Source: Candidatus Neomarinimicrobiota bacterium (GTDB taxonomy: Bacteria; Fidelibacterota; Fidelibacteria; Fidelibacterales; Fidelibacteraceae). Taken from it: a DNA stretch of 39,360 nucleotides. A model generated the notes under the pieces. That model did not search any database. It was not told the DNA's origin and saw only the letters and a list, made by a program, of their open reading frames with translations. Made by a program: the position numbers and the translations under genes. The stretch lies in assembly GCA_021157965.1 (NCBI GenBank), contig JAGGVO010000049.1, positions 1 to 39,360 of the forward strand. Reading direction: 5' to 3'. Below, one piece after another: positions 8,137 to 36,051 of this stretch. Position 1 is the stretch's first letter. Each line of letters opens with the position of its first letter.

Positions 8137-8421
8137 ATTTTTTCCTTTCCTTTTATGTTATCGGTTTTGCAAAATATACTTGCTTTAATTCGTACAATTT
8201 TAAATTATTGTTTATTATCTTAAATATCAACAAAAAAAAAAATATGAATATCTACACATTGCAAACTGTTTTTCCATGTACCTTTATAAGGGATATTTTA
8301 AAATATGTTTCAACCTGTTTTCAGAATACAATATACCGGACGATCATAAAATGTAAAATAGTATCCAAACTTGTTTCTCTGACAGATTTAGCCTACATTT
8401 CCAATATATATGGGAAAGAAA
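8137..8421. other. AT-rich divergent intergenic region (ArsR-like gene / signalling operon)
   Basis: 285 bp of strongly AT-rich DNA that must hold the promoters for both divergent units. A weak plus-strand candidate is TTCAAC, 17 bases, TATACC around 8309-8337, but neither box is strong. I see no clear operator palindrome. A 99-aa open frame running through it looks spurious. Confidence 0.4.
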
Positions 8422-8802
8422 ATGACTGAATCCCATCCCAAAACAGCACCGCTTGTATCACGCCTGAAAGAAAGGGTCGGACTTCAGGAAGAGCGTCTGA
8501 AAATGCTTTATTCACTGGGCGGAGAGGACATTCTGAAAAAGATCCTTCATACAGCGCTGGATAATATGATCCATCGGGGCGACGGCCTGGATAAATCCCT
8601 TGATGAGAAGGACTGGGATACGGTGCATAAGTTGGCTCATTCTATTAAATCTTCTGCAGGCAATATCGGAGCACTGGATGTGATGACATTAGCCCGAATT
8701 GTTGAAGAGACGGACCTCCCTGACCCAAAAAAGGTCCGTGAACTCCGGGATAAAATCCGTATCTTACACAAGCAAATCAAAAAGAGTATGGATATATCAT
8801 GA
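8422..8802 (+). CDS. Stand-alone histidine phosphotransfer (Hpt) protein
   Basis: 126 aa from the ATG at 8422. The Hpt motif HKLAHSIKSSAGNIGA is clear, with H73 as the phospho-accepting histidine in a four-helix bundle. Hpt proteins shuttle phosphate between receiver domains in multi-step relays. I chose ATG 8422 because GGGAAAG sits just upstream; an in-frame ATG at 8410 has no ribosome site. It is first in a run of overlapping signalling genes (4-bp overlap with the next), so it probably works with the receivers and kinase that follow. Confidence 0.88.
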   Translation: MTESHPKTAPLVSRLKERVGLQEERLKMLYSLGGEDILKKILHTALDNMIHRGDGLDKSLDEKDWDTVHKLAHSIKSSAGNIGALDVMTLARIVEETDLPDPKKVRELRDKIRILHKQIKKSMDIS

Positions 8803-9176
8803 ACCGGAAGAAAATTGTTTTGATTGAGGATAATGCCGACAATCGTCTGTTAACCCAGGCTATCCTGGAACCGGAGTTTCAGGTGGAATGTTTTGAGGAT
8901 GGAATGACGGCACTTGACAAGATTGAAATATCCGCACCGGATTTGATCCTGCTGGATATTTCCCTTCCCGGTATGGATGGGATAGAGGTATTAAAAAATA
9001 TCCGAAACATACAAAGCTTAAAAAATACCCCCGTCATTGCCCTGACAGCTCATGCTCTGCCCGGTGATAAGGAAAATTTTCTACGCCAGGGATTCAATGA
9101 TTACATTACCAAACCGATTATTGATGATAACATCCTGTTTGAAACTATCAACAAGTGGATTCCTCCAGGTGAATGA
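8799..9176 (+). CDS. Single-domain response regulator (CheY-like receiver)
   Basis: 125 aa, one receiver domain with no output domain. The acidic pair is in IEDN near residue 9, phospho-acceptor D53 lies in LILLDISLPGMDG, the conserved threonine in ALTAHAL, and the lysine in ITKPI. It resembles the receivers that follow hybrid kinases and pass phosphate to an Hpt. It overlaps both neighbours by 4 bp (ATGA), so translation is probably coupled. Confidence 0.93.
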   Translation: MNRKKIVLIEDNADNRLLTQAILEPEFQVECFEDGMTALDKIEISAPDLILLDISLPGMDGIEVLKNIRNIQSLKNTPVIALTAHALPGDKENFLRQGFNDYITKPIIDDNILFETINKWIPPGE

Positions 9177-11269
9177 ACAATCCAGGGTCACATAGAGGGA
9201 TTTTTTTCAGATACTTGATCCCCATTTTGGTCTTTATTCTGATTTTTTTCCTCCTGGAAAGCCTATTTTGGTTTTTTTCCCGTGTTATGGATCTGGATGA
9301 TATTTTCTGGAGCCGTGCCCTTTACCTGCAAAAATCCGTCCTTGTGCTAAATTTATTTGTAGCACTCATTTTTTCATTTATTACCGGATTCATCATCTAC
9401 CGGATTCAGGTTTTAAAATACAAACTTTCCGAAGCCGGACATGAGCAGGAAGGACTCTTTGATAAAATCCCATTTCAGGTTATGGTTAAAGATGACAAAG
9501 GGATCATTGTACGGGTCAATCAGGCTGTTTTGGATTTTTACGGACTGGATCCGCAGGATATCCTTGGTAAAAAAGAAGAGGAGGCTTTTCCAGGTCTTAA
9601 AGCCTGGTATTTTGAAAATAACGAGTATGTGTATCACAAACAGATCGCAAAGCGTGGCATCCTGGAAACCCGGATTATCCCGGATGGCCATGAGAAAATC
9701 GTCAAGACGGACCGCATCCCCTGTTTTAATAAAAAAGGTGATTTTCAGGGAGTGATGGTGTTTGGTGAAGATGTGACATCGGATGTGGAAACGGCGCATC
9801 AGATCCGGGAAACCAGTTCCCGCCTGGAAAAAATCATCGAAAGCCTGCAGGAAGGGGTGATCCTGAGTACACCGGAGGGACACTTTGAAATCTACAATTC
9901 CCAGATGCGGGATATTACAGGTTATACCCGGGAACAGGCAAACCGGACCCGGAATTTCATCAATTTGCTCTATCCCGATCCCAACCAGCGTCAGATTGTT
10001 ATCGATGCCATAGAGAATATGAAAAAAACGGGCCGCTCCCATGAAACCATTACGGAAATTGTCACCCGGGACCGCCAGCATAAACTTATCCTGGTTTCGT
10101 CGGTGCTGGTGACCTTTAATGATAAAATCCGTTTTTTAAGCACTTACCGGGATGTGACCGATGTTTTTCATACCCAGGAACAGGTCAACCTGTTCAGCCG
10201 GGCCGTGGAACAGGGTGCCAGCTCGGTGTTGATTGCAGACAGAAATGGGTATATCCAGTATTCAAACTCCAAATTCAGTGAAATCTCGGGATTTGACAGG
10301 GATGATATTGTAGGACAGAGTATCGGTTTTCATTTTATCCGGTCTTCTCCAAATGGCATGTATGATGATATGGTGCAACACATGAACGATGGAGAGGAAT
10401 GGCAGGGAGAATTTAAATGTCAGAGAAAAAACGGGGATGTGTACTGGAATGATATCAATATATCCCCCATCGTTGATTCATCCGGTGAAATCACCCATTT
10501 CATCATCATTGAAAATGATATCACCGAACGGCGGCGGATGATTGAAATGTTGAAAAATGCCCGGGATATTTCTGAATCGGCAAATCGTGCGAAAACCGAA
10601 TTTCTGGCCAATATGAGTCATGAACTCCGGACGCCTCTCAATTCTATCATCGGCTTCACGAATATCCTCCTGAAAAATGAAAAAAAGCATTTTGACGAAC
10701 GGGATGTGATGTTTTTGGATCGCATTCGTCAAAACGGCATTCAACTGCTCAATATCCTCTCGGATATTCTGCAAATCAGTATGGTGGAATCAGGGAAAAT
10801 CACGACCCGGTTTGTGCAGACAGATTTGCAGGAGTTATTCAAAGAGATTCTAAGCACTTATGGTGAAAATGCCCGTAAAAAGGGGCTGGATTTCAATGTT
10901 TTCATGCCTGAGCAAATTCAGCCATTTAAGTCCGATCCGGAAAAGCTCAAATCCATCGTGGACAATTTGTTATCCAATGCCGTGAAATTCACGGAAAAGG
11001 GGAGTGTTTCCATCACCATTAATGTAAATCCGAATACAGGTGAACCGGCTGAACTCATCATCGCCGATACGGGTCCCGGCATTCCCCAGGAAAGGCATGA
11101 ATCTATTTTTAAGGCCTTTGAACAGGTGGATTATTCCAAATCCCGGAAATACGGAGGGACGGGACTTGGTCTTGCCCTTGCCAATTCTTATGCCGAACTG
11201 ATGAACTACCGGTTGCTGATGGACAGCCGGGTTGATGAAGGGACCGCCTTTACGATCCGCTTTTATTAA
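9173..11269 (+). CDS. Membrane sensor histidine kinase with PAS domains
   Basis: 698 aa. Two transmembrane helices are seen (about residues 14-36 and 50-73) with almost no periplasmic loop, so sensing is probably in the membrane or cytoplasm. Three PAS-type domains follow (about 95-205, 217-330 and 338-455; the last has the GDVYWNDINISPI core and the ITERR linker). HisKA has H483 in NMSHELRTP. The HATPase domain has the N-box around DNLLSNAVKF, the G1 box DTGPGIP and the G2 box GGTGLGLALA. It has no receiver of its own, so its phosphate must go to a partner such as the product of the preceding or following genes. Confidence 0.93.
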   Translation: MNNPGSHRGIFFRYLIPILVFILIFFLLESLFWFFSRVMDLDDIFWSRALYLQKSVLVLNLFVALIFSFITGFIIYRIQVLKYKLSEAGHEQEGLFDKIPFQVMVKDDKGIIVRVNQAVLDFYGLDPQDILGKKEEEAFPGLKAWYFENNEYVYHKQIAKRGILETRIIPDGHEKIVKTDRIPCFNKKGDFQGVMVFGEDVTSDVETAHQIRETSSRLEKIIESLQEGVILSTPEGHFEIYNSQMRDITGYTREQANRTRNFINLLYPDPNQRQIVIDAIENMKKTGRSHETITEIVTRDRQHKLILVSSVLVTFNDKIRFLSTYRDVTDVFHTQEQVNLFSRAVEQGASSVLIADRNGYIQYSNSKFSEISGFDRDDIVGQSIGFHFIRSSPNGMYDDMVQHMNDGEEWQGEFKCQRKNGDVYWNDINISPIVDSSGEITHFIIIENDITERRRMIEMLKNARDISESANRAKTEFLANMSHELRTPLNSIIGFTNILLKNEKKHFDERDVMFLDRIRQNGIQLLNILSDILQISMVESGKITTRFVQTDLQELFKEILSTYGENARKKGLDFNVFMPEQIQPFKSDPEKLKSIVDNLLSNAVKFTEKGSVSITINVNPNTGEPAELIIADTGPGIPQERHESIFKAFEQVDYSKSRKYGGTGLGLALANSYAELMNYRLLMDSRVDEGTAFTIRFY

Positions 11270-11280
11270 TTAGGGTTTAT

Positions 11281-12798
11281 ATGGAAAATTTGAAAAAAAT
11301 ATACATCCGTAACCTGCCTTCCCGGATTGATTCTTTGAAAACACAGGTGAATGGCTTGGAAAAAGGCAGCGAAGGAGCTGGCGAATCCATCCGCAGACTG
11401 GCCCATTCCCTTTACGGTTCCGGAGCAACATACGGATTCCCCCGGGTTTCCGAAGTTGCCCGGAATGTAGAAGTGTGTCCGGATGGGGAACTTCTAAAAA
11501 AAAGCCGTGAACTGATTCATGTCCTGGAAGATTTGGTGCTTGACTACGAAAAAACACCTCAGACACTCCTGATTATTGATGATGACCCCGATATCGTGTT
11601 GATTCTTAAAATGACCCTGGCAAGGATATTTGATAAAATTGACGAGGCGGAAACCTTTGAAAAGGCCCAATTGCTTTTGCAGCAGCAGGATTATTCCCTG
11701 ATTCTTCTGGATCTGGTTTTGCCGGACAGGGATGGACGGGAAATTCTGGTGAATATGAGGAAAAGTCCGTACATGAAAAGGGTCCCGATTCTGGTGATGT
11801 CTGCCCTGACGGATTTCAAGCATAAACAGGAATGCTATGCCCTGGGTGCCGATGGATTTATTCAAAAACCTTTTATGCCGGAAGATGTGATACTGACGGT
11901 TCAGACAATCCTCAATCAGTATGAATCATCCAGTGATGCACCCCTTTCGGACAAGACAAAAGCCCTCCATGAAAGGGAGTTGCAGTCCTTTTACCAGAAA
12001 ACACATGCCCTTATGCAAATGACCCGGAGCCATGCCACGCTGGTAAAAATTGCCATAGATGATCTTCAGACATATCGGCTCCATTTCGGCCGGGACATAG
12101 AAGAAAAAATTGTAACCAAAGCCCGGGATATTATCAATGATCATCTGAGAGATTCGGATTATCTTTTCCGGCATGGTGACGGCTCTTTTTCTATAATCCT
12201 CCCGAATACGAGCCTGGACGATGCATCCCTGATTGTAGAACGGATGCTCTTTTATATACGGGAAATCGGGAAAAAAGATATCCAGTTTTTCATGTCCGCC
12301 GGTCTTGTCGATCTTGGGGATGTAAAAAGTTATGAAGAAGCCACAACGACCGTGAATGCCCTTTTGGCCCGGGCGCAAAATGAAGGAGGGAACCGAATGG
12401 TTCTCCAATTCAAATCCGAATCCCTCAAAAATAAAATCATGCTGGCTGAAGATGACCGATTGATGGCAAACATCATTATTCACAATCTGAAAAAAGCCGG
12501 ACTTGAGGTGGATTATTTCAGTGATGGTGCCCTGGCGCTGGAAGGGGCAGAAAACCATGATTACGCATTAATTATCACAGATATCAAAATGCCGGTTATA
12601 GACGGATTCGAATTATTGCGTCGTGTCAGAATGCTGCCCGGGAAAACCCATACGCCGGTACTGATTTTGACATCCATGGGGAACGAAGATGATATTGTGC
12701 GTGCTTTTGATTTGGGAGCCGATGATTATCTTCTGAAGCCTTTTTCACCTAAAGAATTGATTGCCCGGGTTAACCGGATGCTTCGTGGGCTCTTATGA
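11281..12798 (+). CDS. Hpt-REC-degenerate GGDEF-REC signalling hub
   Basis: 505 aa with four modules. (1) Hpt, residues 1-90, with H42 in RLAHSLYGSGATYGFP. (2) Receiver, about 96-215, D144 in LLDLVLPDRDG. (3) GGDEF-fold domain, about 235-385, in which the signature is GDGSF at 299-303 in place of GGDEF; the RxxD motif RDSD (290-293) sits just upstream where the c-di-GMP inhibitory site lies in active cyclases. (4) Receiver, about 390-505, D434 in ITDIKMPVIDG. The broken active site argues against c-di-GMP synthesis; binding through the RxxD is possible but unproven. It lies 11 bp after the kinase and overlaps the next receiver gene by 4 bp. Confidence 0.88.
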   Translation: MENLKKIYIRNLPSRIDSLKTQVNGLEKGSEGAGESIRRLAHSLYGSGATYGFPRVSEVARNVEVCPDGELLKKSRELIHVLEDLVLDYEKTPQTLLIIDDDPDIVLILKMTLARIFDKIDEAETFEKAQLLLQQQDYSLILLDLVLPDRDGREILVNMRKSPYMKRVPILVMSALTDFKHKQECYALGADGFIQKPFMPEDVILTVQTILNQYESSSDAPLSDKTKALHERELQSFYQKTHALMQMTRSHATLVKIAIDDLQTYRLHFGRDIEEKIVTKARDIINDHLRDSDYLFRHGDGSFSIILPNTSLDDASLIVERMLFYIREIGKKDIQFFMSAGLVDLGDVKSYEEATTTVNALLARAQNEGGNRMVLQFKSESLKNKIMLAEDDRLMANIIIHNLKKAGLEVDYFSDGALALEGAENHDYALIITDIKMPVIDGFELLRRVRMLPGKTHTPVLILTSMGNEDDIVRAFDLGADDYLLKPFSPKELIARVNRMLRGLL

Positions 12799-13139
12799 GA
12801 ATTTTTGTCTGTGAGGATGATCCGGATATGCAGTTTCTTCTCTCATATATCCTGAAGAAAGCAGGCCATTTGCCCGTCATTATCCCCGACAAAAAAAGCC
12901 TTTTTAACCGGTCTTCACCGGAAACAGACCTGATACTCATGGATCTCCGGTTCGGGGATGATTATGGCCTTGATGTCCTCAAGTCCTGGACGTATGAATG
13001 TCCGGTTATTTTGATAACAGGAGTGCAAAATCCCGATCTTCAAGGACAGGGAAACGCATTAGGAATCATTGATATCATCAGGAAGCCTTTTAATCCTGTT
13101 GAATTAATCACTTATTTTAAATCCTTGAGCCTGAAATGA
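12795..13139 (+). CDS. Single-domain response regulator (divergent receiver)
   Basis: 114 aa. The receiver fold has the acidic pocket CEDDPD, phospho-acceptor D50 in LILMDLRFGDDYG, T in LITGV and K in IRKPF. The loop after D50 departs from the usual LPxxDG, so it is a divergent receiver. It overlaps the hub gene by 4 bp and ends 1 bp before the HEAT-protein gene, bridging the signalling and biosynthesis halves of the operon. It may deliver the output to the HEAT or glycosyltransferase proteins (inference). Confidence 0.88.
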   Translation: MRIFVCEDDPDMQFLLSYILKKAGHLPVIIPDKKSLFNRSSPETDLILMDLRFGDDYGLDVLKSWTYECPVILITGVQNPDLQGQGNALGIIDIIRKPFNPVELITYFKSLSLK

Positions 13140-13140
13140 T

Positions 13141-14214
13141 ATGATTCGATATTACTGGCACATATTCATAACCATGTCCCGTCAGGACCAGATTCTGTTT
13201 GTCCTGACTCTTTCCATTCTGTTGCTTCTCATTTTCGTCATTTTTCTGGCTTTTTCCACTTTTTATCTTCGGGCGAAGAACAATCGGAAATCCAGAAAAT
13301 ATTACCGGCTTGAGCGTATTTGGGAACCTCTTTTATTGGAGATTCTCAGTGAAGAGAGGGCCCCTGAATCGATTAAGTCTTATGTGCATCCGGATGATAT
13401 CTGGCAATTTCTGACATATCTGAGCCGTTATATTGCCCGGGTGGATGGTGAAGCCAGACAACGGCTTATTGAAGCCGGGCAGCCTTATGTGAAGAGAATT
13501 TTAAACAAACTGCATAGCTGGAGAGTTGAAAAAAGGGCGGAAGTCATCAGTTTGCTTCAGCGTATGGACCCGGATCAGTACGATCCGGCATTTAAAAAAG
13601 CGTTGAAAGACAGATCTTTTTTAGTCAACATGGTCGCTGCCCGTGCTCTGGCCCGAAAGGGACAAGTAGAGAACGGCGAGGCTATTTTAAAGCATTTGAA
13701 TCGCTTTGAGATATGGTCTGTGAATTTACTTTCTTCGTTCATTGCACAGGTGGGGAACGGACTTAGTCCGGCCTTGCGGGCGCTGATGACAGACCGGAAC
13801 AAACCTGCCTGGCAAAGAACCGTGGCAATTGAAACGCTTCACAAACTGTACGATTTTAAGGCAGGGGATTATGCCAATGTGATTTGTACTCCTGACGAAA
13901 ACAGGGAAGTTGTAGCAGCGTATTTGAGATTGTTACGGGTCATCGGTGAGGAAAAACACATCCCCTATATAAAACAGGTCTGTGAACGGAATGATCCCGT
14001 CTTATTGGCCAATGGCATCCGGATTCTGGTCAACCTGGAAAAAGAAAAATTCCCGACCTGCCTTTATAAAGCCATGGACCACCCTTCCATCTGGGTTGTA
14101 ATCAATGCAGCCTGGGGATTGAAAGAATCAGGCAAACTGGATGTCCTCAGGCATTATGCCTATTCAGACCACCCACGGGCTGAACTGGCCAGACAGGTTT
14201 TGATGGAGGCCTAA
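13141..14214 (+). CDS. Membrane-anchored HEAT-repeat protein
   Basis: 357 aa. One transmembrane helix (about residues 18-44) is followed by a soluble, all-helical domain. Repeated helix pairs such as RSFLVNMVAARALARKG and HPSIWVVINAAWGLKESG have the HEAT/PBS-lyase-like spacing, giving roughly five or six repeats. Such solenoids are protein-binding scaffolds. Its position between the receivers and the glycosyltransferase, with 1-bp and 0-bp gaps, suggests it connects signalling to the synthase at the inner membrane. The orientation of the soluble domain is not certain. Confidence 0.75.
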   Translation: MIRYYWHIFITMSRQDQILFVLTLSILLLLIFVIFLAFSTFYLRAKNNRKSRKYYRLERIWEPLLLEILSEERAPESIKSYVHPDDIWQFLTYLSRYIARVDGEARQRLIEAGQPYVKRILNKLHSWRVEKRAEVISLLQRMDPDQYDPAFKKALKDRSFLVNMVAARALARKGQVENGEAILKHLNRFEIWSVNLLSSFIAQVGNGLSPALRALMTDRNKPAWQRTVAIETLHKLYDFKAGDYANVICTPDENREVVAAYLRLLRVIGEEKHIPYIKQVCERNDPVLLANGIRILVNLEKEKFPTCLYKAMDHPSIWVVINAAWGLKESGKLDVLRHYAYSDHPRAELARQVLMEA

Positions 14215-15648
14215 ATGATTGATATACCCCGTCTGTTTCTGGATTTTTTCAACCATGTGGTTCTTGCTTACTTTTTTATTTTGAATACGGTATATCTTAT
14301 TTTAAACAGTATTTCTTTTATATCCCTTCGCAGATATGCCCGGAGTATGCGGGTTTTACAGGTGGATGAATTGATCAACATTGCCGGGGCTCTGCCTATT
14401 ACCCTTATTGCTCCGGCATATAATGAAGGTTCAACCATTGTTGAATCCACACGATCCCTGCTGGCTCTGAAATATCCGGACTTTGAAATTATTACTGTTA
14501 ATGACGGGTCTAAGGATGATACCTTAAAACATGTCATCGAGAATTTCGACATGATCCAGGTTTCCAGAGCTCCTATTGCTTCCCTGAAAACCGCCGAAGT
14601 CAAAGCGGTTTACAGAAGCCGGAAACATTATAATCTTTGGCTGATTGACAAGGAAAACGGCGGGAAGGCCGATGCCCTCAATTGTGGCTTGAATTATGCC
14701 AGAACACCCCTCTTTTGTGCTATAGATTCGGACAGTCTGCTTGAACGGGATTCCCTGACACGTATCGTACGGCCCTTTTTGGAAAATAAAGAAACCATTG
14801 CTGCCGGAGGAATTATCCGGATTGCCAATGGCTGTGATGTACGGGGAGGCGAAGTAAAAAATATCAAACTCCCGAAAAATCAACTGGCTCGTTTTCAGGT
14901 GATGGAATATTTAAGAGCTTTTCTGGCGGGACGCATGGGGTGGGATACTATTAAACTAACTTTTATTATATCCGGTGCCTTCGGGATTTTCAAACGGGGC
15001 ATTGCCATTGCTGCCGGGGGATATCACACTCAAACTGTCGGTGAAGATATGGAACTGGTAGTTCGTCTTCATCGCTATTGTATTGAAAATAGCATTCCCT
15101 ATCACATTACCTTTATTCCCGATCCTGTCGCCTGGACCGAGTGTCCTGAATCTATGAAAATATTGGGACGGCAGAGAGATCGCTGGCAACGGGGATTGAT
15201 AGAAGTCCTGTTCCGCCACAAAAAAATGTTGATGAATCCCCGATACGGCCGGATCGGAATGCTGGCTTATCCCTATTTCTTTTTTCTGGAAATGTGCGGT
15301 CCCCTGGTTGAAGTCCCGGGGTATCTCCTCTTCCTCATCTCATGGGCAACGGGAAATTTGTCCACCATGTATGTCTCCGCTTTTTTCATTCTGGCCTTTA
15401 TTTTTGGAGTAAATCTGAGCATTTTTGCCGTGGGACTCGAAGAGCTTACATTCAAACGCTACGGGCGATTCAGGGATCTGCTGAATTTGTTTTGGCTGGC
15501 TGTTATTGAGAATTTTGGATATCGCCAGCTTACCACCTATTGGCGTGCCCGGGGAACCTGGTCTTTTTTCCGTAAAGTCAAATCGTGGGGAGCCATGGAA
15601 CGAAAAGGATTCCAAACCATCGAAGCAGACAGGAATAAAAAGTCATGA
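14215..15648 (+). CDS. Processive family 2 glycosyltransferase (polysaccharide synthase)
   Basis: 477 aa. An N-terminal membrane helix is followed by a GT2 domain with the motifs of processive beta-glycan synthases: D97 in VNDGSKDD, D171-S-D173, E277-D278 in VGEDMEL and Q320-x-x-R323-W324 (QRDRW). C-terminal transmembrane segments lie at about 345-378 and 385-410. It resembles PgaC/IcaA and BcsA-type enzymes that polymerise a UDP-sugar and extrude the chain through the inner membrane. Which sugar is used cannot be told. A GGAGG site lies 5 bp before the ATG, which directly follows the HEAT gene stop. It overlaps the YaiO gene by 4 bp. Confidence 0.92.
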   Translation: MIDIPRLFLDFFNHVVLAYFFILNTVYLILNSISFISLRRYARSMRVLQVDELINIAGALPITLIAPAYNEGSTIVESTRSLLALKYPDFEIITVNDGSKDDTLKHVIENFDMIQVSRAPIASLKTAEVKAVYRSRKHYNLWLIDKENGGKADALNCGLNYARTPLFCAIDSDSLLERDSLTRIVRPFLENKETIAAGGIIRIANGCDVRGGEVKNIKLPKNQLARFQVMEYLRAFLAGRMGWDTIKLTFIISGAFGIFKRGIAIAAGGYHTQTVGEDMELVVRLHRYCIENSIPYHITFIPDPVAWTECPESMKILGRQRDRWQRGLIEVLFRHKKMLMNPRYGRIGMLAYPYFFFLEMCGPLVEVPGYLLFLISWATGNLSTMYVSAFFILAFIFGVNLSIFAVGLEELTFKRYGRFRDLLNLFWLAVIENFGYRQLTTYWRARGTWSFFRKVKSWGAMERKGFQTIEADRNKKS

Positions 15649-16964
15649 AAAATCATCTTATGTATAAATTGAACTCACTACTTATCACTTTCCCGAAATC
15701 CATTCCCAATGATCTTAAACCCTCAATCTCAACCTTAACCTTAACCTTAACCTTATTCTTAATCCCAACCTTTTCCCTCGCCCAGGATTTTCCTCCCGAA
15801 AGTCGTGAATTAAAGGGATTGGTTTATCAGGAGCTTTTTAGCAATGCCCGGGAAGCCATCCGGAATGACAGTCTGCCACAAGCGGAAAAGATTCTCAATT
15901 TTCTTCTGGAAAATTTCCCCGGAGATGCAGATGGCCAACTTATGCGGGGACGGGTTTTGGCGTGGCAGGGGAAATACATAGATGCCGAGAAGGATCTTCT
16001 GGAGGTGACCCGGAATACACCGGAATATACAGATGCCTGGTATGCCCTAACGGATCTCTATTTTTGGACGGACAGGCTGGATAAAGCTAAAAAAAGTTGC
16101 GAAATGTGCCTGAAACAAGAACCGGATACACCGGGATTTTATATCAAATATGCACGGATTTTAATCGGACTTCGGCTGTATCCCAAAGCAAGACAGGCTT
16201 TGTTAAAAGGACTGGAACTGGGAGCTGATCCCCTGGATGTAAATCCGTTCCTGGATGAAATCAACCGGATTCAGAATCCGTTGACCTGGGAAGGCGGTGT
16301 TGCCCTGGACTACCAAACATTCTCAACTGAAAAATCAGACTGGTTTGGAATGATTCAGAATGTTAAACGGGATTTTAAAAATCAAACACTGATGGTTGAA
16401 GCCGGACAATATTGGCGCTATGACAGGACAGATCAGCAGCTAAGTGGCGAAATCTATGCAGATGTCTGGCAGAATGCTTTCTGGAACGTCCGGTTTTCTG
16501 CTGCTTTTCAACAAGTTTTCCTTCCGGATTTCGATATCTACAGTGAACTGTACCAGGGATTTGCCGGGAAATGGGAGGGTGCTGTAGCATACAGGATGAT
16601 GAATTTTCCAGATGATGATATTCATATTCCTGCTCTGGCTGTGGCACTTTATCAGGGATCTTATTATTTTAGATATAAATTTAACTATATTATTGATAAT
16701 CCCAACAACAAAGTATTTCACTATTTTTCAGCCCGGTATTACTATGGGAGTGTCGATGATTATGTTGAATTCTCCTATGGATATGGACGGGATCTGGATC
16801 AGATATCTCAGGAAATTCCGGTAGACGATTCTCATGTTTTAACGTTGAAAGGCCAACATTTGCTTCATCGCCAATGGATTTTCCAATGGATGATCAACCA
16901 CCAGTATAATCCCAACGAAGAAAATCAGAGAGGAGGACGGATTGGACTCTTCTTTAGGTGGTAA
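15645..16964 (+). CDS. TPR plus YaiO-type outer-membrane beta-barrel protein
   Basis: 439 aa. A signal peptide (through about residue 46, FSLA-QDF) carries an unusual TLTLTLTL run. Residues 50-205 are TPR-like helical repeats (for example QLMRGRVLAWQGKYIDAEKDL). From about residue 214 to the end is a tyrosine- and tryptophan-rich alternating beta pattern ending in an aromatic residue (FFRW), as in outer-membrane barrels of the YaiO family. In E. coli, yaiO lies beside the GT2 gene yaiP, and here it directly follows a GT2 gene, so an export-pore role for the polysaccharide is likely. It overlaps the GT2 gene by 4 bp and the next gene by 23 bp. Confidence 0.85.
   Translation: MKNHLMYKLNSLLITFPKSIPNDLKPSISTLTLTLTLFLIPTFSLAQDFPPESRELKGLVYQELFSNAREAIRNDSLPQAEKILNFLLENFPGDADGQLMRGRVLAWQGKYIDAEKDLLEVTRNTPEYTDAWYALTDLYFWTDRLDKAKKSCEMCLKQEPDTPGFYIKYARILIGLRLYPKARQALLKGLELGADPLDVNPFLDEINRIQNPLTWEGGVALDYQTFSTEKSDWFGMIQNVKRDFKNQTLMVEAGQYWRYDRTDQQLSGEIYADVWQNAFWNVRFSAAFQQVFLPDFDIYSELYQGFAGKWEGAVAYRMMNFPDDDIHIPALAVALYQGSYYFRYKFNYIIDNPNNKVFHYFSARYYYGSVDDYVEFSYGYGRDLDQISQEIPVDDSHVLTLKGQHLLHRQWIFQWMINHQYNPNEENQRGGRIGLFFRW
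15731..15754 (+). repeat. Hexanucleotide tandem repeat (AACCTT)4 inside the YaiO signal peptide
   Basis: Four perfect AACCTT units, encoding alternating Thr-Leu in the hydrophobic core of the signal peptide. Because the unit is 6 bp, gain or loss of copies would keep the frame and only lengthen or shorten the core. It may be related to the low-complexity sequences found elsewhere in the window. Confidence 0.85.
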
Positions 16965-18165
16965 GATAAAAAAAGAATCGGATGACGGGGATCATACCCG
17001 TTTATCCACCCGGGAGAAAAAGGGGCATCAAAAGCGAAGTGTTGGACTCATTTTATTTTTTCTCTTGCCATTCTGGATGTTTCTTCTGTGGTTCTTTTCA
17101 CCTTGTGTGGAGAAGTCTGTCTTTATCATGGATAAAACTGTTCCCAATCAGAATTTTCAGGAACACAAAGCTTTCTTCTGGGTTTTAAGGTATTTAAAAT
17201 GGGTCAAACCGGATGATTCTTTTTACAACCCGTCTGATGATTATTATGGTTTTTTCCCCGTTGAGCCGGGATTGTCCTATTTTGTAGATGATCTGGAACA
17301 TGTGAATTCTCAGGACCTTGAACTGCTGGCTGATTCTGTGGATATGGCGGTTTTTCTGGATGGATACGGTGTGTACCGTCAGGATTGGTGGGGAAGAAGA
17401 GACGGGGATGAGATTTCCAGGTTATATGGAGGTATCAGCCTTCAGGATATCCGCTTTTTAGAACTCTTACAGTCCCAAGGGAAACCTGCCATGGCAGAAT
17501 TCAGTTTTTTGGGATCACCGACACCTTACGATGTCCGCCGGCGTATAGAAAAGAGTTTCAACTTAAAATCCACGGGATGGACCGGCCGGTATTTTGATGA
17601 CCTGGACATTCTCAATACGGATATTCCCCGGTGGATTTTTGAAACATATCAGGAACAATATGATACCATTTGGGAGTTGAAAGGCCCCGGGACGATCCTG
17701 GTGCATGAAAACGGTACCATCCTTATCTTGCAGGCTGAAAAACATTTACGCACTTATTGGCCGGTGGTAAGTACAGATAAGGCATGGCAAAAAAAGCTCC
17801 GTGTGCCGGATGAAATCCGTTATCCTTTTTGGTTTGAGATTATTGCCGCCGGACCTGAATACACCATGATTTCTGAATTTTATCTGGATGTTACCGAGGC
17901 CGGAGATTCCCTTTTATCATTACACAATGTGCCGAATGCGTTTCCTGCCACACTTATCCGCCGTGAACCTTCGCCCTTTCTTTATTATGCCGGCGATTTT
18001 TCCGATACCAGAGTCAATCTGAGAACCGCCCATCTTTGGGGTATCCAATATTTCAGATCTCTTTTTTATAATGAAGGTGAGCCTTTGGACAGGGATAAAT
18101 TCTTTTGGGATTATTATATTAATGTGACGAAAGGGTTTTTAAGAGGGGATGTTTGGGGCAGATGA
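16942..18165 (+). CDS. Unrecognised membrane-anchored protein of the polysaccharide operon
   Basis: 407 aa, family not recognised. A basic, hydrophilic N-terminus (1-32) precedes one transmembrane helix (about 33-56); the rest is probably periplasmic. The soluble part is rich in aromatic and acidic residues, with stretches such as AVFLDGYGVYRQDWWG, WTGRYFDDLD and PFLYYAGDFSD that look like active-site loops of a globular enzyme. The start is TTG at 16942, supported by AGGAGG five bases upstream, and overlaps the YaiO gene by 23 bp. Position argues for a role in making, modifying or exporting the polysaccharide. In E. coli the yaiO/yaiP cluster carries a deacetylase (YaiS), but I see no deacetylase motif here. 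Confidence 0.7.
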   Translation: MDSSLGGKIKKESDDGDHTRLSTREKKGHQKRSVGLILFFLLPFWMFLLWFFSPCVEKSVFIMDKTVPNQNFQEHKAFFWVLRYLKWVKPDDSFYNPSDDYYGFFPVEPGLSYFVDDLEHVNSQDLELLADSVDMAVFLDGYGVYRQDWWGRRDGDEISRLYGGISLQDIRFLELLQSQGKPAMAEFSFLGSPTPYDVRRRIEKSFNLKSTGWTGRYFDDLDILNTDIPRWIFETYQEQYDTIWELKGPGTILVHENGTILILQAEKHLRTYWPVVSTDKAWQKKLRVPDEIRYPFWFEIIAAGPEYTMISEFYLDVTEAGDSLLSLHNVPNAFPATLIRREPSPFLYYAGDFSDTRVNLRTAHLWGIQYFRSLFYNEGEPLDRDKFFWDYYINVTKGFLRGDVWGR

Positions 18166-18198: not shown

Positions 18199-19164
18199 AT
18201 GTCAGATGAATGCAGGCCCCGGATTTTACTGAGTCGATGTATTGAATATGAGCACTGCCGGTTTAACGGGGGGATTGTCTCAAGCCGGGAAATTAAAAAT
18301 TTGAAACCTTTTGTCAAGTTTATTACGGTATGTCCTGAAGAGGCGGTTGGTCTCAGTGTACCCCGGGAAGCCATCCGGATGATCAGAAAAAAAGGGGAAA
18401 GACATCTGATCTGGAGTCTCTCCGGAAAAGATATTACACAGGATATGAAGGATTACACGGAACGATATTTGAAAGATTTGGAGGATATTGACGGAGCCGT
18501 GTTGAAAAGCCGTTCTCCCACATGTGGAATTAAGGATGTAAAAGTCTATCCTTCTGCGGGGAAAGTGGCTGCATTGGGAGAAAAAACAACGGGTTTGTTC
18601 GGCGGGGCCGTAGCAGGATTTTTTCAGGATATTCCTGTTGAAGATGAGGTACGACTGACCAATCTCAGGATTCGTGAACACTTTTATACCCGAATTTTTA
18701 CCCATAAGCGCTTTGCTGATCTGAAAAAAACCCCAACCATGGCCAAATTGGTCGATTTTCACACACGACATAGATACTTATTTATGATATACAGTCAAAA
18801 GGAGTGGCGGAATGCCGACAGGGTTGTTGCCCGTCACAGTAATAAAACATTGGGAACTGCCCTTGAGGCCTATAAAGCTGTGCTTAACAAAATTTTCCTG
18901 AAACCTCCCAGACGATCCTCTGTGATCAATGTCATCATGCATATCATGGGTTATTTTTCAAATCAACTCTCTTCGGAAGAGAAAGCATTTTTCTTTGATC
19001 AGCTTGAAATCTACCGTGAGGGAAAAATACCGATGAGCAACCTTATTTTGATTCTCCGTTCCTGGATTGTCCGTTTCAATAATGATTATCTGAAAAAGCA
19101 GATTTTTTTTGAACCCTATCCCCGGGACCTGATTTCTATATCAGATTCTGGAAAAACAGAGTAA
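18199..19164 (+). CDS. TudS-like (DUF523) plus DUF1722 protein
   Basis: 321 aa in two parts. Residues 1-150 are DUF523, with C14 and C20 in LSRCIEYEHCRFNGG, C45 in TVCPE and C109 in SPTCG. This family includes TudS, a [4Fe-4S] thiouracil desulfidase. Residues 155-310 are a DUF1722 (YbgA-like) helical domain, from HKRFADLKKTPTMAKLV to FFEPYPRDL. The two-domain form is widespread but its substrate is not established; sulfur removal from a thiolated nucleobase is the best guess. AAGGAG lies upstream of ATG 18199. It is 33 bp after the polysaccharide operon and 16 bp before the exchanger gene. Confidence 0.88.
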   Translation: MSDECRPRILLSRCIEYEHCRFNGGIVSSREIKNLKPFVKFITVCPEEAVGLSVPREAIRMIRKKGERHLIWSLSGKDITQDMKDYTERYLKDLEDIDGAVLKSRSPTCGIKDVKVYPSAGKVAALGEKTTGLFGGAVAGFFQDIPVEDEVRLTNLRIREHFYTRIFTHKRFADLKKTPTMAKLVDFHTRHRYLFMIYSQKEWRNADRVVARHSNKTLGTALEAYKAVLNKIFLKPPRRSSVINVIMHIMGYFSNQLSSEEKAFFFDQLEIYREGKIPMSNLILILRSWIVRFNNDYLKKQIFFEPYPRDLISISDSGKTE

Positions 19165-19180
19165 ATCAAAGGAGTAACCC

Positions 19181-20767
19181 GTGCTGGAAAATCCTGTTTT
19201 TCTCCTATTTGTTATTATTACCCTTGGATATTTTCTGGGCATGATCCGATTCGGTTCTTTTAGTCTGGAGGCATCCGGGATTGTCATTGTTGCCATGATA
19301 TTTGGTCATTTTGGATACATGGTGCCCGATGCTTTTCGAACCATGGGACTTACGCTATTTTTATACACGATTGGACTCCAGGCCGGTCCGGGATTTATTG
19401 AATCCTTTAAAAAAAGTGGTCGGCAGTTCACAACACTGGCACTGATCACCGTTGGATCAGCCGGAATATTAACCCTGATTCTGGGGCACATTTTTAGAAT
19501 AAGTCCTGAGCTGTCTATTGGCCTGTTTGCCGGAGCTCTCACATCCACGCCCGGACTGGCTGCCGCAACGGAAGCATCCGGAAGTCCTATGGCTTCCCTT
19601 GGATACGGTGTGGCATATCCTGTGGGGGTCATCGGTACGATTCTGACCCTGCGCATGATGCCCCGTCTTTTCAGAATATCAATCGCTGACGCCGAAAAGG
19701 CAGTTAATCTTGATAAGGTGGATATTCACCGGCAGATGGAATGGCGCATCCTCAGGGTGACAAATGAGAATGTCCGGAAGATGACCATCAAGGACTTAAA
19801 TCTGGATAAGCATTATGGTGTCACGATCTCCCGGATTTTACGGGATGGAGAATCGTTGGTACCGGCACAGGATATACAACTGGAAATAGATGATAAAGTC
19901 CGCCTTGTGGGTCCACGGGAAGGACTGGATAAGGCGGTTCTTCTTCTGGGTGAAGAGGTACATGATGTTGAAATTCCCCTGCCTGCAAACCGGACGGTCC
20001 TCCGGGTTCTGGTCAATAATCCGGAATACGTGGGAAAACAGCTGGGAGATCATCATCTGGAGGAAAGGTTCAATGTGATCGTCACCCGGGTCCGCCGGAG
20101 TGGCATCGATTTACCGCCAACACCTGAACGCAGACTCCAGATGGGAGATATCCTCCAATTGGTAGGGGATGCCCAAACTCTGGAAATGCTGTCGGAACGG
20201 ATGGGCGCCAACCTGAAGAATATGCTGAAGTATGAAATTGTTCCCGTCTCTTTGGGGATTGTTCTGGGTATACTTGTGGGAAGCCTTCATATCGGCCCGG
20301 AAAACGGGCTCACGATTTCGCCGGGATTGAGCGGCGGAATTATTCTCACCTCTCTTTTTCTTGGTTATAAGGGCGTTACCGGCCCGGTAACCTGGGTTGT
20401 GACCGGCCATACAAATCGGCTTTTGAGAGATTTTGGATTGGTCTTTTTTCTGTCGTCAGTGGGCACAGAAGCAGGAGCCGGACTGGTGAATACGATACAG
20501 GATCAGGGGGTTATCCTCCTATTAATGGCCTTATTTATCACGATTCTCCCCATGCTGATTACGGCATTGGCCGGACTCAAACTCTTTAAACTTAACCTGT
20601 TGACCGTCCTGGGAACTATCACCGGTGGTATGACCAATACACCGGGGCTGGGTGTGGTGAATAAAATGAGCGATTCAGACGCCGTAAATGCTTCATACGC
20701 CGCCGTTTATCCCTTTGCCCTGGTATTAATGATTGTGTTTGCACACCTGCTGATTAAAATTTGGTAA
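19181..20767 (+). CDS. AAE/YidE-family membrane transporter with RCK_C domains
   Basis: 528 aa. Two membrane halves (residues 1-165 and 350-528, about five helices each) are internal duplicates: GALTSTPGLAAATEASGS in the first half parallels GGMTNTPGLGVVNKMSDS in the second. Between them are two TrkA-C/RCK_C ligand-binding domains (about 190-270 and 275-350). This is the layout of the aspartate-alanine exchanger family (TC 2.A.81) and YidE/YbjL. The transported solute is unknown. The start codon is GTG at 19181, with AAAGGAG upstream. It probably shares a transcript with the TudS-like gene. Confidence 0.9.
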   Translation: MLENPVFLLFVIITLGYFLGMIRFGSFSLEASGIVIVAMIFGHFGYMVPDAFRTMGLTLFLYTIGLQAGPGFIESFKKSGRQFTTLALITVGSAGILTLILGHIFRISPELSIGLFAGALTSTPGLAAATEASGSPMASLGYGVAYPVGVIGTILTLRMMPRLFRISIADAEKAVNLDKVDIHRQMEWRILRVTNENVRKMTIKDLNLDKHYGVTISRILRDGESLVPAQDIQLEIDDKVRLVGPREGLDKAVLLLGEEVHDVEIPLPANRTVLRVLVNNPEYVGKQLGDHHLEERFNVIVTRVRRSGIDLPPTPERRLQMGDILQLVGDAQTLEMLSERMGANLKNMLKYEIVPVSLGIVLGILVGSLHIGPENGLTISPGLSGGIILTSLFLGYKGVTGPVTWVVTGHTNRLLRDFGLVFFLSSVGTEAGAGLVNTIQDQGVILLLMALFITILPMLITALAGLKLFKLNLLTVLGTITGGMTNTPGLGVVNKMSDSDAVNASYAAVYPFALVLMIVFAHLLIKIW

Positions 20768-24991: not shown

Positions 24992-27778
24992 ATGCCGGAC
25001 CGAGACGATATAAATCGTGACAATGCAACCAACAAACTCCTGAATATCCTTCGGGCAGAATCATCTGAGACCGGGAAAGGAAAAAAGGCGCATCATCCAT
25101 CGGAAAAAATACCCGATGAAGACAGCCTTGACTCAAAAAAACTGACAGCATTATTTGACAAGACCACAGCACAAAAAAAAGGAAAACCGGCAAAAAAAGC
25201 TTTTAAAGAGAGTGATCGGGATCAAAAACAGGAGAAAGAAAAGCCTGAATTAAAGAGTGCTCCGGAAGATTTAAGCCAGTCTATTGATGAAGAGGATCAT
25301 ACGCCGGAAAAACCCAAAAAGGAAACAAAAAAAGATTCCTCTGACGAATTAAGTGAAAGCAAACAAATTCGGGATCAGGAAGAATCTCCAAAAATCAGCT
25401 TGAAACTCGAGAAAAAAGAGACAAAAAAGCCGGAACCGGAAGAAAAAGAGACGGAAAAAGCTGAAGGAGAAAAGGACACTGTAACACCTGAGTCGTTAAT
25501 CTCTAAAACCGGGGAAAAATCCAGCCGTGTGGGTCCTTTTGTGGAGTTTAAAAAGCGTTTTGAGGAACAGAAGGCTGATGATCTGGAAGAAGGGGGAGAG
25601 GCTGAATTTTTTGAAGAAGGGAAACAGATTTCAGATAAAGGCAAATCCCTGTTGACATTTTTGGATCAAAAAACTGAACAAACTTCTGAAGAACAAGCGA
25701 AGTCTGCTGAAGGCATCAGGTTTGAAAATGAAGAGCCTTCCCGTGAGGGGAAATCCATTTTTGACATTCTGGACGAATACATTGCTACTAAAAATGACGA
25801 TATGGTTCTTCCTATCAAAGAGACGGAAGAACTTTCTCTCGAAACCCCGTCACCTGTTCCGCCATCAGAACCTGCAGTCAATGAAAAGACAAAAGTAGAA
25901 AAAACGGCCGTTTCCGAAACACCTGTGAATAAAGCATTTATCACGGAAGAAGAAGAGAAACAGCCCAAATCCGCCACTCAGAAAATCCTTTACGAGGATT
26001 TTGAAAATGAAAAGCGGAGTTTTGATGACTTATTAGATGAAGATGAAAATGAAGACCGGGTATTTGATGAGAAATTTAATTCGGTAGCACCGGCAGTCAA
26101 ATTGAAGATTTCGGAGATTTCCGATTGGCTGAACAATAAACGGAATATTGTGGTTGTCGAGACGGATGAGTCTTCTGCCCGTTACCTGCAGGCCCGGCCG
26201 GAAGTTAATAAAATCAAGATTACCAACTGGGGCGTTTTAAATTATTGGAATTTTACGGAAGATGCTACTGATGAGGATAAACATAAATTCGCCTTGAGAT
26301 CAATTTCCCGGCAGATAAAACACAAGAATAGTTTTCTGACCTTTTTTACCCACTCCCGGAGCTATGTCTCCAGGGTCCAGAATTTTCAGAAACTGAACAA
26401 AAAAGAGACCCGGGAAGCCCTGAAATGGGCTGTAACCAAAAATTTACCTTTTCCTGATAAGGCTATTGAATATGATGTGAAACAGGTCTCGTCGGACAGC
26501 GTTGATGAAAAGAATTTTTTAACCCTGATTGCCCCGCACAATCTGGTAGCTCAACAGGAAAAATATTTTCACGATGTGGGCATGAATCTCTGCCAGATTA
26601 CAACGGTATCGTATCTGGCAGCCAAGGCTTTTCGTCTGAATTACCCCGATTATTTTAAAGAGACGGCGATAATCTTTTATATGGGAGAGACCTACAGCAA
26701 TCTTATTTTCATCAAGAATCATGAATTTCATTATGAGCGGGAATTCAGCATCGGCCGGAAGGATCTGCTTGGAGCTCTGAATCAGGAAGTGAACACCCTG
26801 AACGGTCCACGGAAACTTTCCCCTTCCGATGCCCTTCTGCTTCTGGACAATTACGGATTCCAACGTAAAAAAGGGAGCACAATTAAAAGCCTTGGCATTG
26901 ACCATTCCCGTTACTCCATCATGATTCGTCCTATCGCTGAACGTATCATTATGGAAATCAGCCGTTCCATTGATTACTACCGGAAAACCTTTTCCCTTCT
27001 TGCCGACGGGGATGTCTTCCTTGTTGGACCGGGAGCTGCAATCCCGGGTATTGCCCGCTTTATTGAAGACCATCTGGGCCGGCGGACCAGCATCCTGAAT
27101 CCCATGCGGGCGGATATTTTTGAATACAAATCGAAGGAAGCTAAAATTCCGGAAAAATTATTGCCTTGTTATGCCCTGCATCTGGCAGCAGCCTATCCGG
27201 ACAAAGATCCCAATGTCATCACGAAAGCCACCCGCAACCGGGAGATCTTTATAGCCGGTACAAAGCTATCCTATTTGATTTTAGCCGGATTCCTGATTTT
27301 TGCAGGTATTCGAACTTATGATATGATGGATAAACGGGATCAGGTGAAGGTGAAATACCAGCGGACCCAAACCCGTTGGCGAAATATCTCGGGTGTCTCG
27401 TCCACATTCATGTCCATGAGTAAGAAAGAACAAACACTCACGCAGATCCTGAATCAAGTTCGGACGGATCAGTATTCCACCGACAGGACACTTACTTTCC
27501 TTAAAATGATTTCCAACCTGACACCGACCGGTATCCATCTGATCGATTTTCAGGTAAATAAACCGGCAGGAGATTCAGGCAAGGGCAACTCAGATTTTAT
27601 TTTGAAGGGATATATCACCCGGAATGCTTCGGTTGCCGATATTTATTTGAACAACTACCTGGCAAAGTTTCGGGATACAGGATTTTTTGAATCGATTGAA
27701 TTGTCCACCGGTGATGAAAAAACAGAAACAGGCACACGCCGGACCTTTATGATTAAAGGGGTTTTAAAGAAATTATGA
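24992..27778 (+). CDS. pilM: PilM-PilN fusion with long disordered N-terminus
   Basis: 928 aa in three parts. Residues 1-365 are low-complexity, rich in Lys/Glu/Ser/Pro and certainly disordered, beginning with the DINRDNATNKLLNILRAE motif and holding several short hydrophobic motifs. Residues about 370-745 match PilM, the actin-like ATPase of type IV pilus assembly (ALKWAVTKNLPFP, an IIFYMGETYSNLIFI strand, and VFLVGPGAAIPGIARFIEDHLG near the end). Residues 750-928 match PilN: a short cytoplasmic lead, a transmembrane helix at about 759-780, coiled coil, then a periplasmic ferredoxin-like domain (LTFLKMISNLTPTGIHLIDFQV). PilM and PilN are normally separate proteins that bind each other. Overlaps pilO by 4 bp. 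Confidence 0.88.
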   Translation: MPDRDDINRDNATNKLLNILRAESSETGKGKKAHHPSEKIPDEDSLDSKKLTALFDKTTAQKKGKPAKKAFKESDRDQKQEKEKPELKSAPEDLSQSIDEEDHTPEKPKKETKKDSSDELSESKQIRDQEESPKISLKLEKKETKKPEPEEKETEKAEGEKDTVTPESLISKTGEKSSRVGPFVEFKKRFEEQKADDLEEGGEAEFFEEGKQISDKGKSLLTFLDQKTEQTSEEQAKSAEGIRFENEEPSREGKSIFDILDEYIATKNDDMVLPIKETEELSLETPSPVPPSEPAVNEKTKVEKTAVSETPVNKAFITEEEEKQPKSATQKILYEDFENEKRSFDDLLDEDENEDRVFDEKFNSVAPAVKLKISEISDWLNNKRNIVVVETDESSARYLQARPEVNKIKITNWGVLNYWNFTEDATDEDKHKFALRSISRQIKHKNSFLTFFTHSRSYVSRVQNFQKLNKKETREALKWAVTKNLPFPDKAIEYDVKQVSSDSVDEKNFLTLIAPHNLVAQQEKYFHDVGMNLCQITTVSYLAAKAFRLNYPDYFKETAIIFYMGETYSNLIFIKNHEFHYEREFSIGRKDLLGALNQEVNTLNGPRKLSPSDALLLLDNYGFQRKKGSTIKSLGIDHSRYSIMIRPIAERIIMEISRSIDYYRKTFSLLADGDVFLVGPGAAIPGIARFIEDHLGRRTSILNPMRADIFEYKSKEAKIPEKLLPCYALHLAAAYPDKDPNVITKATRNREIFIAGTKLSYLILAGFLIFAGIRTYDMMDKRDQVKVKYQRTQTRWRNISGVSSTFMSMSKKEQTLTQILNQVRTDQYSTDRTLTFLKMISNLTPTGIHLIDFQVNKPAGDSGKGNSDFILKGYITRNASVADIYLNNYLAKFRDTGFFESIELSTGDEKTETGTRRTFMIKGVLKKL

Positions 27779-28341: not shown

Positions 28342-28342
28342 T

Positions 28343-28873: not shown

Positions 28874-28943
28874 AGAATGAACACGGGAACCAATCCTCTG
28901 TGGATTATTAATAAAAGATACAAAGACAAAAACGGAGATCCGG

Positions 28944-30701: not shown

Positions 30702-30718
30702 TCTTCAGGAGATGATTG

Positions 30719-31783: not shown

Positions 31784-31784
31784 G

Positions 31785-32888: not shown

Positions 32889-32912
32889 TTAAATGGATTG
32901 TACGGTTAAATC

Positions 32913-34859: not shown

Positions 34860-34870
34860 TGAATGAAGGT
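34834..34870. repeat. AATTCTGAAT low-complexity repeat at the kinase 3' end
   Basis: AATTCTGAAT occurs twice here (34836-34845 and 34848-34857) and also at 1771-1780, with its reverse complement at 1751-1760. It crosses the kinase stop codon and encodes the last nine residues. Confidence 0.65.
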
Positions 34871-34890
34871 TAAAGAAAAGGGTAAAAATC

Positions 34891-36038: not shown

Positions 36039-36051
36039 TCAGGAGTAGAAC

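Follow-up and report, generated by a model that had tools for sequence, protein, structure and literature searches.

A predicted phosphorelay encoded with a HEAT-repeat protein and a processive glycosyltransferase in Marinimicrobia and other phyla

The window analyzed here is a 39,360-nucleotide contig (JAGGVO010000049.1, here C49) from the 2.3-Mb draft genome, 96% complete, of a Candidatus Neomarinimicrobiota bacterium. It carries a run of nine genes that combines a predicted multistep phosphorelay (genes 1 to 5) with a HEAT-repeat protein, a processive family 2 glycosyltransferase (GT2), an outer-membrane barrel, and an anchored protein (genes 6 to 9). The operon is real and widely conserved, and it is apparently undescribed. 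Judged from alignments, its constant part is a receiver (REC), predicted to be phosphorylatable, beside the HEAT-GT2 pair, and its variable part is a GGDEF domain. Known post-translational control of synthase-dependent polysaccharides rests largely on cyclic diguanosine monophosphate (c-di-GMP). The explanation favored for this operon, held with moderate confidence, is that the phosphorylated receiver acts post-translationally on the PgaC-like synthase through the membrane-anchored HEAT protein as an adaptor, with a c-di-GMP output that is optional and has been repeatedly lost.

Conservation of the Receiver, HEAT, and GT2 Core

The core of REC, HEAT, and GT2 recurs in Marinimicrobia, in Bacteroidota, in the phylum containing Longimicrobiales (which we take to be Gemmatimonadota), and in one Rhodothermales genome. 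The HEAT gene lies immediately upstream of GT2 in 79 of the 79 counted loci (Marinimicrobia 33/33, from 31 genomes; Gemmatimonadota 21/21; Bacteroidota 24/24; Rhodothermales 1), or in 79 of 80 if the decayed locus of genome G219 is added. A receiver gene is found near the pair in 78 of the 79, the exception being locus L127. Marinimicrobia loci were selected by HEAT and those of Gemmatimonadota and Bacteroidota by GT2, and the HEATB model was seeded from four of the 24 Bacteroidota loci, these four matching by construction. Conservation of the order over several phyla excludes chance adjacency of the nine genes. The original prediction had named a gene order confined to this genome as its refutation; the order recurs in relatives and in other phyla.

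Within the Marinimicrobia phylum, the HEAT protein is present in 43 of 245 genomes. The count takes in 31 of these 43 HEAT-positive genomes and does not include G231 and G232 (E about 1e-4). At the 33 usable loci, many of them short, a receiver is always nearby and is directly upstream of HEAT in 29, while a kinase is nearby in 20 and a histidine phosphotransfer (Hpt) domain in 21. The fullest order (Hpt, REC, kinase, Hpt-REC-GGDEF-REC, REC, HEAT, GT2, YaiO, gene 9) recurs in several Marinimicrobia families, and gene 9 was found in 11 of 61 relatives, the window genome among them.

Beyond this phylum, a GT2 scan gave named matches in Longimicrobiales, Rhodothermales, Sphingobacteriaceae, another Bacteroidetes, and Prevotella. 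Of the 395 genomes in the Bacteroidota sample, 94 have a close GT2 (E <= 1e-60), as do 60 of the 249 in the Longimicrobiales phylum (E <= 1e-100). The Bacteroidota loci comprise 20 from 20 of the 94 genomes, chosen for spread, and 4 from the scan of named relatives; the Gemmatimonadota loci comprise 20 from 19 of the 60 genomes and L066. A count at the level of domains puts HEAT upstream of GT2 by 24-244 bases in all 24 Bacteroidota and all 21 Gemmatimonadota loci, with scores of only 35-64 bits in ten of the latter. This level was used because long spurious open reading frames (ORFs) mask HEAT when whole ORFs are counted (Gemmatimonadota 14/21, Bacteroidota 23/24). A same-strand receiver lies upstream within 6 kb in 18 of the 24 and 21 of the 21, respectively. 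YaiO is nearby in 16/24 Bacteroidota and 3/21 Gemmatimonadota loci, gene 9 in 6/24 and 0/21, and, among Gemmatimonadota, a kinase in 9/21 and Hpt in 12/21; genes hidden by overlapping ORFs may be missing from all these numbers. A further ten Bacteroidota loci, picked for a long HEAT frame, have REC immediately upstream of HEAT in 10/10 and a histidine kinase, REC, and Hpt just before it in 5/10. The HEAT alignment matched 88 of the 395 Bacteroidota-sample genomes, some of these matches being merely generic HEAT.

Left out of the adjacency counts were loci already present in another collection (L065, L068-L072, L076), loci that were truncated or masked (L022, L033, L046/L047, L049, L050, L129, L133, L134, L137, L138, L140, L146), and loci with gene 9 only (L048, L054). 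Among these, L022, L137, L138, L140, and L146 do have HEAT followed by GT2.

The operon has been lost within the genus of the window. In G003 (L048, 18400-19404), window positions 8345-17236 are absent at one contiguous junction, an 8.9-kb deletion that takes out genes 1 to 8 together with the beginning of gene 9; what remains of gene 9 is split over two frames. G003 is thus a natural operon-loss allele. In two further members, G002 and G005, neither HEAT nor gene 9 was found.

Loss and Retention of the Cyclase Site

Gene 4 contains a GGDEF domain (PF00990, E=1.3e-9), which scores 38.5 bits where the cut-off is 23.8. In the window its motif reads HGDGSF and the column of the first metal aspartate holds alanine, and the domain does not qualify as an active diguanylate cyclase. 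The window and two genus mates carry HGDGSF, HHDGSF, and HNNGSF, and all three operon-bearing members of the genus retain the RxxD I-site as RDSD or RESD. Compared with the nearest relative, G004, the GGDEF part of gene 4 has dN 0.061 and dS 1.02 (ratio 0.060; 0.059 for the whole protein). This rules out a decaying pseudogene: the window GGDEF is constrained.

Forty gene 4 homologues were aligned (38 Marinimicrobia rows, one from Gemmatimonadota, one from the Bacteroidota sample). The site is degenerate in 15, and one more homologue (G213), with GGEEF and masked upstream bases, was set apart. Of the 24 intact homologues, 22 have the I-site, versus 5 of the 15 degenerate ones. On a GT2 tree of 82 loci, where GGDEF is intact in 25, degenerate in 25, and lacking in 32, intact and degenerate-or-absent states interchange 6 times, with at least 4 changes forced by well-supported branches. 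The tree is a quick maximum-likelihood one with one kind of support and a root that was not inferred, and its changes mix degeneration with absence. Truncation explains its label for lack of GGDEF at L137 and L138, and some Gemmatimonadota labels depend on ORF calling, the intact label being safer. A degenerate GGDEF is by nature a loss, and G036 has one within a well-supported clade of otherwise intact members. Gemmatimonadota have intact GGDEF in L174, L175, and L179 and degenerate forms too. Four core-bearing Bacteroidota genomes (G247-G250, all drafts) gave 0 GGDEF matches.

A phospho-acceptor aspartate is present in 134 of 140 aligned receiver domains, duplicates included, at loci up to L127. 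The exceptions are the first receivers of one group (family f1, genus g2), with their duplicates, and L126. In that group (L064 and L069-L072; L130-L132 and L136 duplicate L070-L072 and L069), gene 4 relatives have lost key residues of both the first receiver and GGDEF, and the last receiver keeps its aspartate and lysine.

Proposed Mechanism and Alternatives

Direct observations in this work are the domains, the order and conservation of the genes, the loss of catalytic residues, and the purifying selection. A kinase with HisKA and HATPase_c domains, Hpt domains, and receivers bearing the phospho-acceptor aspartate provide the parts of a multistep phosphorelay, which genes 1 to 5 are predicted to form. 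The PAS kinase (gene 3) would autophosphorylate, and phosphate would be handed on by the receivers and Hpt domains in genes 2, 1, and 4 to a terminal acceptor, the receiver nearest HEAT, which may be gene 5, the C-terminal REC of gene 4, or both. The phosphorylated receiver would bind the cytoplasmic HEAT superhelix of the inner-membrane gene 6 protein, which would sit on the GT2 synthase (gene 7) and alter its activity. The polymer would leave across the outer membrane via the TPR/YaiO barrel (gene 8), aided by the anchored gene 9 protein. The GGDEF domain of gene 4 would be an inherited c-di-GMP output whose catalytic site was lost in the window genus, and c-di-GMP may remain able to modulate the switch through the retained I-site. 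We infer in this scheme the direction of phosphotransfer, the receiver-HEAT and HEAT-synthase contacts, the sign of control, the topology of the proteins, and the identity of the polymer.

Direct action on the synthase had originally been argued from the lack of a DNA-binding domain. On its own that conclusion does not follow, and the argument overlooked the GGDEF domain as a possible output; what stands is that Pfam finds no DNA-binding family among the nine window proteins. Direct action is favored here because REC-HEAT-GT2 persists through four or more changes in the cyclase site on the tree, and because the four Bacteroidota genomes without a detected GGDEF protein keep a receiver by HEAT-GT2.

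The retained I-site is open to another reading, in which the dead GGDEF of gene 4 in the window genus binds c-di-GMP and switches HEAT and GT2 in the manner of Bacillus subtilis YdaK, the phosphorelay merely setting the conformation of the receptor. For the window genus this is a serious rival, given the survival of RxxD in all three members despite loss of the catalytic motif and the low dN/dS of the domain. Two further GGDEF proteins of the window genome have an intact GGEEF motif, and c-di-GMP may accordingly be present in the cell. YdaK itself, from an exopolysaccharide (EPS) operon, has a degenerate GGDEF and is described as working by way of its I-site (PMC7064775). The reading loses ground outside the genus, where RxxD has also gone from 10 of the 15 degenerate homologues and the four core-bearing Bacteroidota genomes have no GGDEF protein that could be found. 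RxxD is moreover widespread in GGDEF domains, as the intact homologues show, and may be a relic. The receptor reading is considered rather unlikely as the principal explanation; it can hold together with direct action through HEAT, and the rivals are not fully exclusive. A synthase under PilZ control, of the BcsA or Alg44 type, was rejected: PilZ was found in none of the nine window proteins (Pfam) and in 0 of 31 genomes, with the control positive in 5 of 14. HD_5 matches occur in the window genome and in 23 of the 31 in all.

Several observations weigh against control through HEAT. Both GG[DE]EF and the metal aspartate are intact in 24 of the 40 gene 4 homologues, and most Marinimicrobia members keep a cyclase site that looks intact, which makes c-di-GMP the apparent output there. 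The window genome has 21 receiver-domain matches, and the targets of the kinase could include regulators encoded elsewhere. The receiver protein of one Rhodothermales member (L067) bears a helix-turn-helix, and absence of DNA-binding output is for that reason not a general feature. Six of the 24 Bacteroidota loci have no same-strand upstream receiver (five have one on the opposite strand or downstream; L127 has none nearby), and a kinase is nearby in only 12/24 and Hpt in 9/24, where overlapping ORFs may hide genes. The receiver of the Prevotella locus (L077) has no acid pair, and G219 (L134), with a short HEAT and no GT2, is a real exception. None of the ten long HEAT frames shows a receiver-HEAT or receiver-GT2 fusion: a Rosetta-stone receiver fusion was sought in their extensions, which are N-terminal, or C-terminal and by eye acidic, and none matched a receiver. 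Conservation of gene order shows shared function and not physical contact.

The first three of these points would also fit a relay that is merely co-transcribed with the polysaccharide genes. Its real output would then be the global pool of c-di-GMP or a regulator elsewhere that binds DNA, with the polysaccharide genes as one of several targets. This is judged unlikely. Against it stands the conservation, in several phyla, of a receiver immediately ahead of HEAT, also at loci with no kinase nearby or with the cyclase gone, and it sits poorly with the lack of a DNA-binding family in the nine window proteins.

Receivers might instead place the machine, for instance the synthase next to type IV pili, and leave catalytic activity alone. 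Such a role would suit HEAT proteins, which as scaffolds often have binding partners. It would also suit the presence in this window of a pilus cluster equipped with a kinase and a stand-alone receiver, and the weak, below-cut-off SPOR- or LysM-like N-termini of two Bacteroidota HEAT proteins. A purpose of assembly or localization, partly a variant of post-translational control through HEAT, is held to be distinctly unlikely.

The type IV pilus cluster occupies window positions 24992-39321 and has PilM-, secretin-, two T2SSE ATPase-, PilD-type peptidase, and T2SSF-type genes. Its histidine kinase lies at 32913-34859 and its stand-alone receiver at 34891-35262. The second ATPase bears an MshEN domain, which is known to bind c-di-GMP, in a genome without a PilZ match.

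Layout of the Nine Genes

The ORF map places all nine genes on the forward strand from 8410 (or 8422, the second ATG of gene 1) to 18165 (Table 1), as originally predicted. Successive intergenic distances are -4, -4, 11, -4, 1, 0, -4, and -23 bases, negative values being overlaps. The predicted spacing of no more than 12 bases therefore fits seven junctions (-4 to 11) and fails at the last, where genes 8 and 9 overlap by 23. The only start of gene 9 detected between 16942 and 17050 is a TTG behind AGGAGG, within the end of gene 8. For genes 1 to 5, Pfam agrees with the predicted content of one kinase, two Hpt domains (genes 1 and 4), and four receivers (genes 2, 4 twice, and 5). For genes 6 to 9, Pfam and NCBIfam bear out the assignment as HEAT, GT2, TPR/YaiO, and a protein of no family. 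Across the nine genes, dN/dS against G004 is 0.035-0.218, which is purifying selection.

Table 1. Genes of the operon, with window coordinates and supporting evidence.
Gene	Product	Position	Strand	Evidence
1	Hpt phosphotransfer protein	8410..8802	+	PF01627 E=1.6e-8; second ATG at 8422
2	Stand-alone receiver (REC)	8799..9176	+	PF00072 E=1.3e-25; E, D, D, T, K key residues present
3	PAS histidine kinase, HisKA + HATPase_c, without own receiver	9173..11269	+	Pfam domain search
4	Hpt-REC-GGDEF-REC	11281..12798	+	PF01627, PF00072 x2, PF00990 above cut-off; GGDEF site degenerate (HGDGSF), I-site RDSD retained
5	Stand-alone receiver directly upstream of HEAT	12795..13139	+	PF00072 E=2e-12; key residues present
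6	HEAT-repeat protein, long hydrophobic N-terminal helix	13141..14214	+	HEAT_2 E=6.3e-11; AlphaFold2 model
7	PgaC-like GT2 synthase, without PilZ domain	14215..15648	+	PF00535 E=9.5e-22; best NCBIfam PgaC_IcaA E=2.2e-38
8	TPR + YaiO outer-membrane beta-barrel	15645..16964	+	TIGR04390 108.6 bits vs cut-off 32
9	Membrane-anchored protein, no assigned family, TTG start	16942..18165	+	No Pfam family above cut-off

Relay and synthase belong to one conserved unit, as had been proposed. The proposed end at 18165 is not established, because two more genes, at 18199 and 19181, follow on this strand with gaps of 33 and 16 bases. Between 7600 and 19300, neither promoter-like sites (26 versus a shuffle mean of 23.4) nor terminator-like sites (14 versus 12.6) are in excess. 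The two downstream genes (18199-20767) encode a 2-thiouracil desulfurase/DUF1722 protein and then an Asp-Al_Ex-type permease, and they keep this order in G004 with additional DNA between. A phage-type integrase gene lies close to the contig start (87-1118).

HEAT Protein, Synthase, Barrel, and Gene 9

The AlphaFold2 model of the HEAT protein (predicted local distance difference test, pLDDT, 90.5) has a helix at residues 14-69, judged by eye to be a membrane anchor, followed by a helical repeat domain. Its fold matches are mostly designed armadillo or alpha-repeat proteins and PP2A scaffolds. The Bacteroidota HEAT proteins with weak SPOR- or LysM-like matches in their N-terminal extensions are at L195 (4876-6789) and L196 (5673-7118). 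Such N-termini would suggest contact of the HEAT protein with the periplasmic cell wall and would put the HEAT repeats in the cytoplasm, where the receivers are.

The GT2 scores 132.3 bits against PgaC_IcaA, below the equivalog cut-off of 422.3, and matches sequences in the PDB over ~50 residues only. Gene 8 reaches 19.3 bits with PGA_TPR_OMP, short of the cut-off of 366.65, and qualifies as YaiO by TIGR04390. No polysaccharide deacetylase (PgaB/IcaB type) or PgaD match was found in the nine proteins with Pfam or NCBIfam, gene 9 being without a family. A canonical poly-N-acetylglucosamine (PNAG) system was rejected on the GT2 score, the lack of a deacetylase match, and the lack of a PgaA porin. 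Some Bacteroidota GT2 proteins are fused to, or adjoin a protein with, a sulfatase/alkaline-phosphatase-superfamily domain (L109 and L114 in GT2 frames; L110 and L190 in TPR frames), which suggests decoration of the polymer.

Gene 9 relatives outside the genus are 33-40% identical (34-35% for two from Bacteroidota) and share many invariant aromatic residues. Against sequences of solved structures, the gene 9 alignment gave a best E of 0.2. The gene 9 model is of low confidence (pLDDT 60.5, from a 4-row alignment) and gives weak matches to class I glutamine amidotransferase-like folds (best Z 9.3; root-mean-square deviation 4.1 over 182 residues; 7% identity; template-modeling score by query 0.24-0.31). 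A fold of this kind is possible for gene 9.

Implications

Taken further, the operon may represent an undescribed, multi-phylum class of control in which a phosphorylated stand-alone receiver gates a processive GT2 via a membrane-anchored HEAT adaptor and c-di-GMP is not needed. Diguanylate cyclase domains would have been wired in and inactivated several times, with relatives showing steps from enzyme to pseudo-enzyme receptor or scaffold. This broader proposal is a tentative one. If the control through HEAT favored here is right, a good share of Bacteroidota, Gemmatimonadota, and Marinimicrobia would control a biofilm-type polymer by direct phosphorelay, an estimate of spread that uses the GT2 (94/395 and 60/249) and HEAT (43/245) genomes, with the receiver checked only in the loci examined. 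It would also help to explain how polymer is regulated in bacteria without c-di-GMP proteins. The natural GGDEF series (intact, dead with I-site, dead without I-site, absent) in a fixed gene context makes the origin of pseudo-enzyme receptors directly testable, and the Bacteroidota members should be amenable to genetics.

Comparison with Known Systems

No report of a REC-HEAT-GT2-YaiO unit was found in the literature searched, which covered few subscription papers, so absence is not proven; to this extent the view that the combination is undescribed holds. A close counterpart is EpsW of Myxococcus xanthus, a single-domain response regulator reported to stimulate the phosphoglycosyl transferase EpsZ once phosphorylated, probably by direct contact; its authors suggest wider use of such control (PMC12802240). 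The likeness is a stand-alone phosphorylatable receiver (here genes 2 and 5) encoded with polysaccharide genes and no DNA-binding output. The difference is the target: EpsW acts on a monotopic phosphoglycosyl transferase belonging to a Wzx/Wzy pathway, and the target here would be a GT2 reached via HEAT. Pfam finds no phosphoglycosyl transferase in the nine window proteins. By analogy, EpsW-EpsZ can serve as a published precedent for the post-translational control proposed.

The predicted resemblance to B. subtilis ydaJ-N is closer than was stated, the window operon having a degenerate GGDEF with an I-site. YdaK is reported to be a membrane protein with four transmembrane helices whose degenerate GGDEF with I-site can control an EPS operon with the putative synthase YdaM/YdaN (PMC7064775). 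Both systems encode a degenerate GGDEF retaining its I-site with a putative synthase, here GT2. They differ in that Pfam and NCBIfam find no YdaJ, YdaL, or YdaN family among the nine proteins, the yda proteins themselves not having been compared. To our knowledge, YdaK has no Hpt or REC, and yda has no phosphorelay, HEAT, or YaiO barrel.

Among synthase systems, PNAG operons (pgaABCD/icaADBC) resemble the window operon in that its GT2 is closest to PgaC/IcaA among NCBIfam models and in combining TPR with an outer-membrane barrel. They differ in that the window GT2 falls below the PgaC cut-off, PgaB-type deacetylase and PgaD matches are lacking, and YaiO replaces the PgaA barrel. Escherichia coli yaiP/yaiO pairs a GT2 with a YaiO barrel, as the window operon does; we know of no HEAT, receiver, or kinase in it. 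Response regulators of the PleD/WspR type combine a receiver with GGDEF, a combination shared by gene 4, most of whose Marinimicrobia homologues have an intact site. Here the order is Hpt-REC-GGDEF-REC, the place before HEAT-GT2 is fixed, and the catalytic site has been lost repeatedly. The system is a variant of the control that response regulators exert on polysaccharide enzymes, and its record of passage from cyclase to pseudo-enzyme is unusual.

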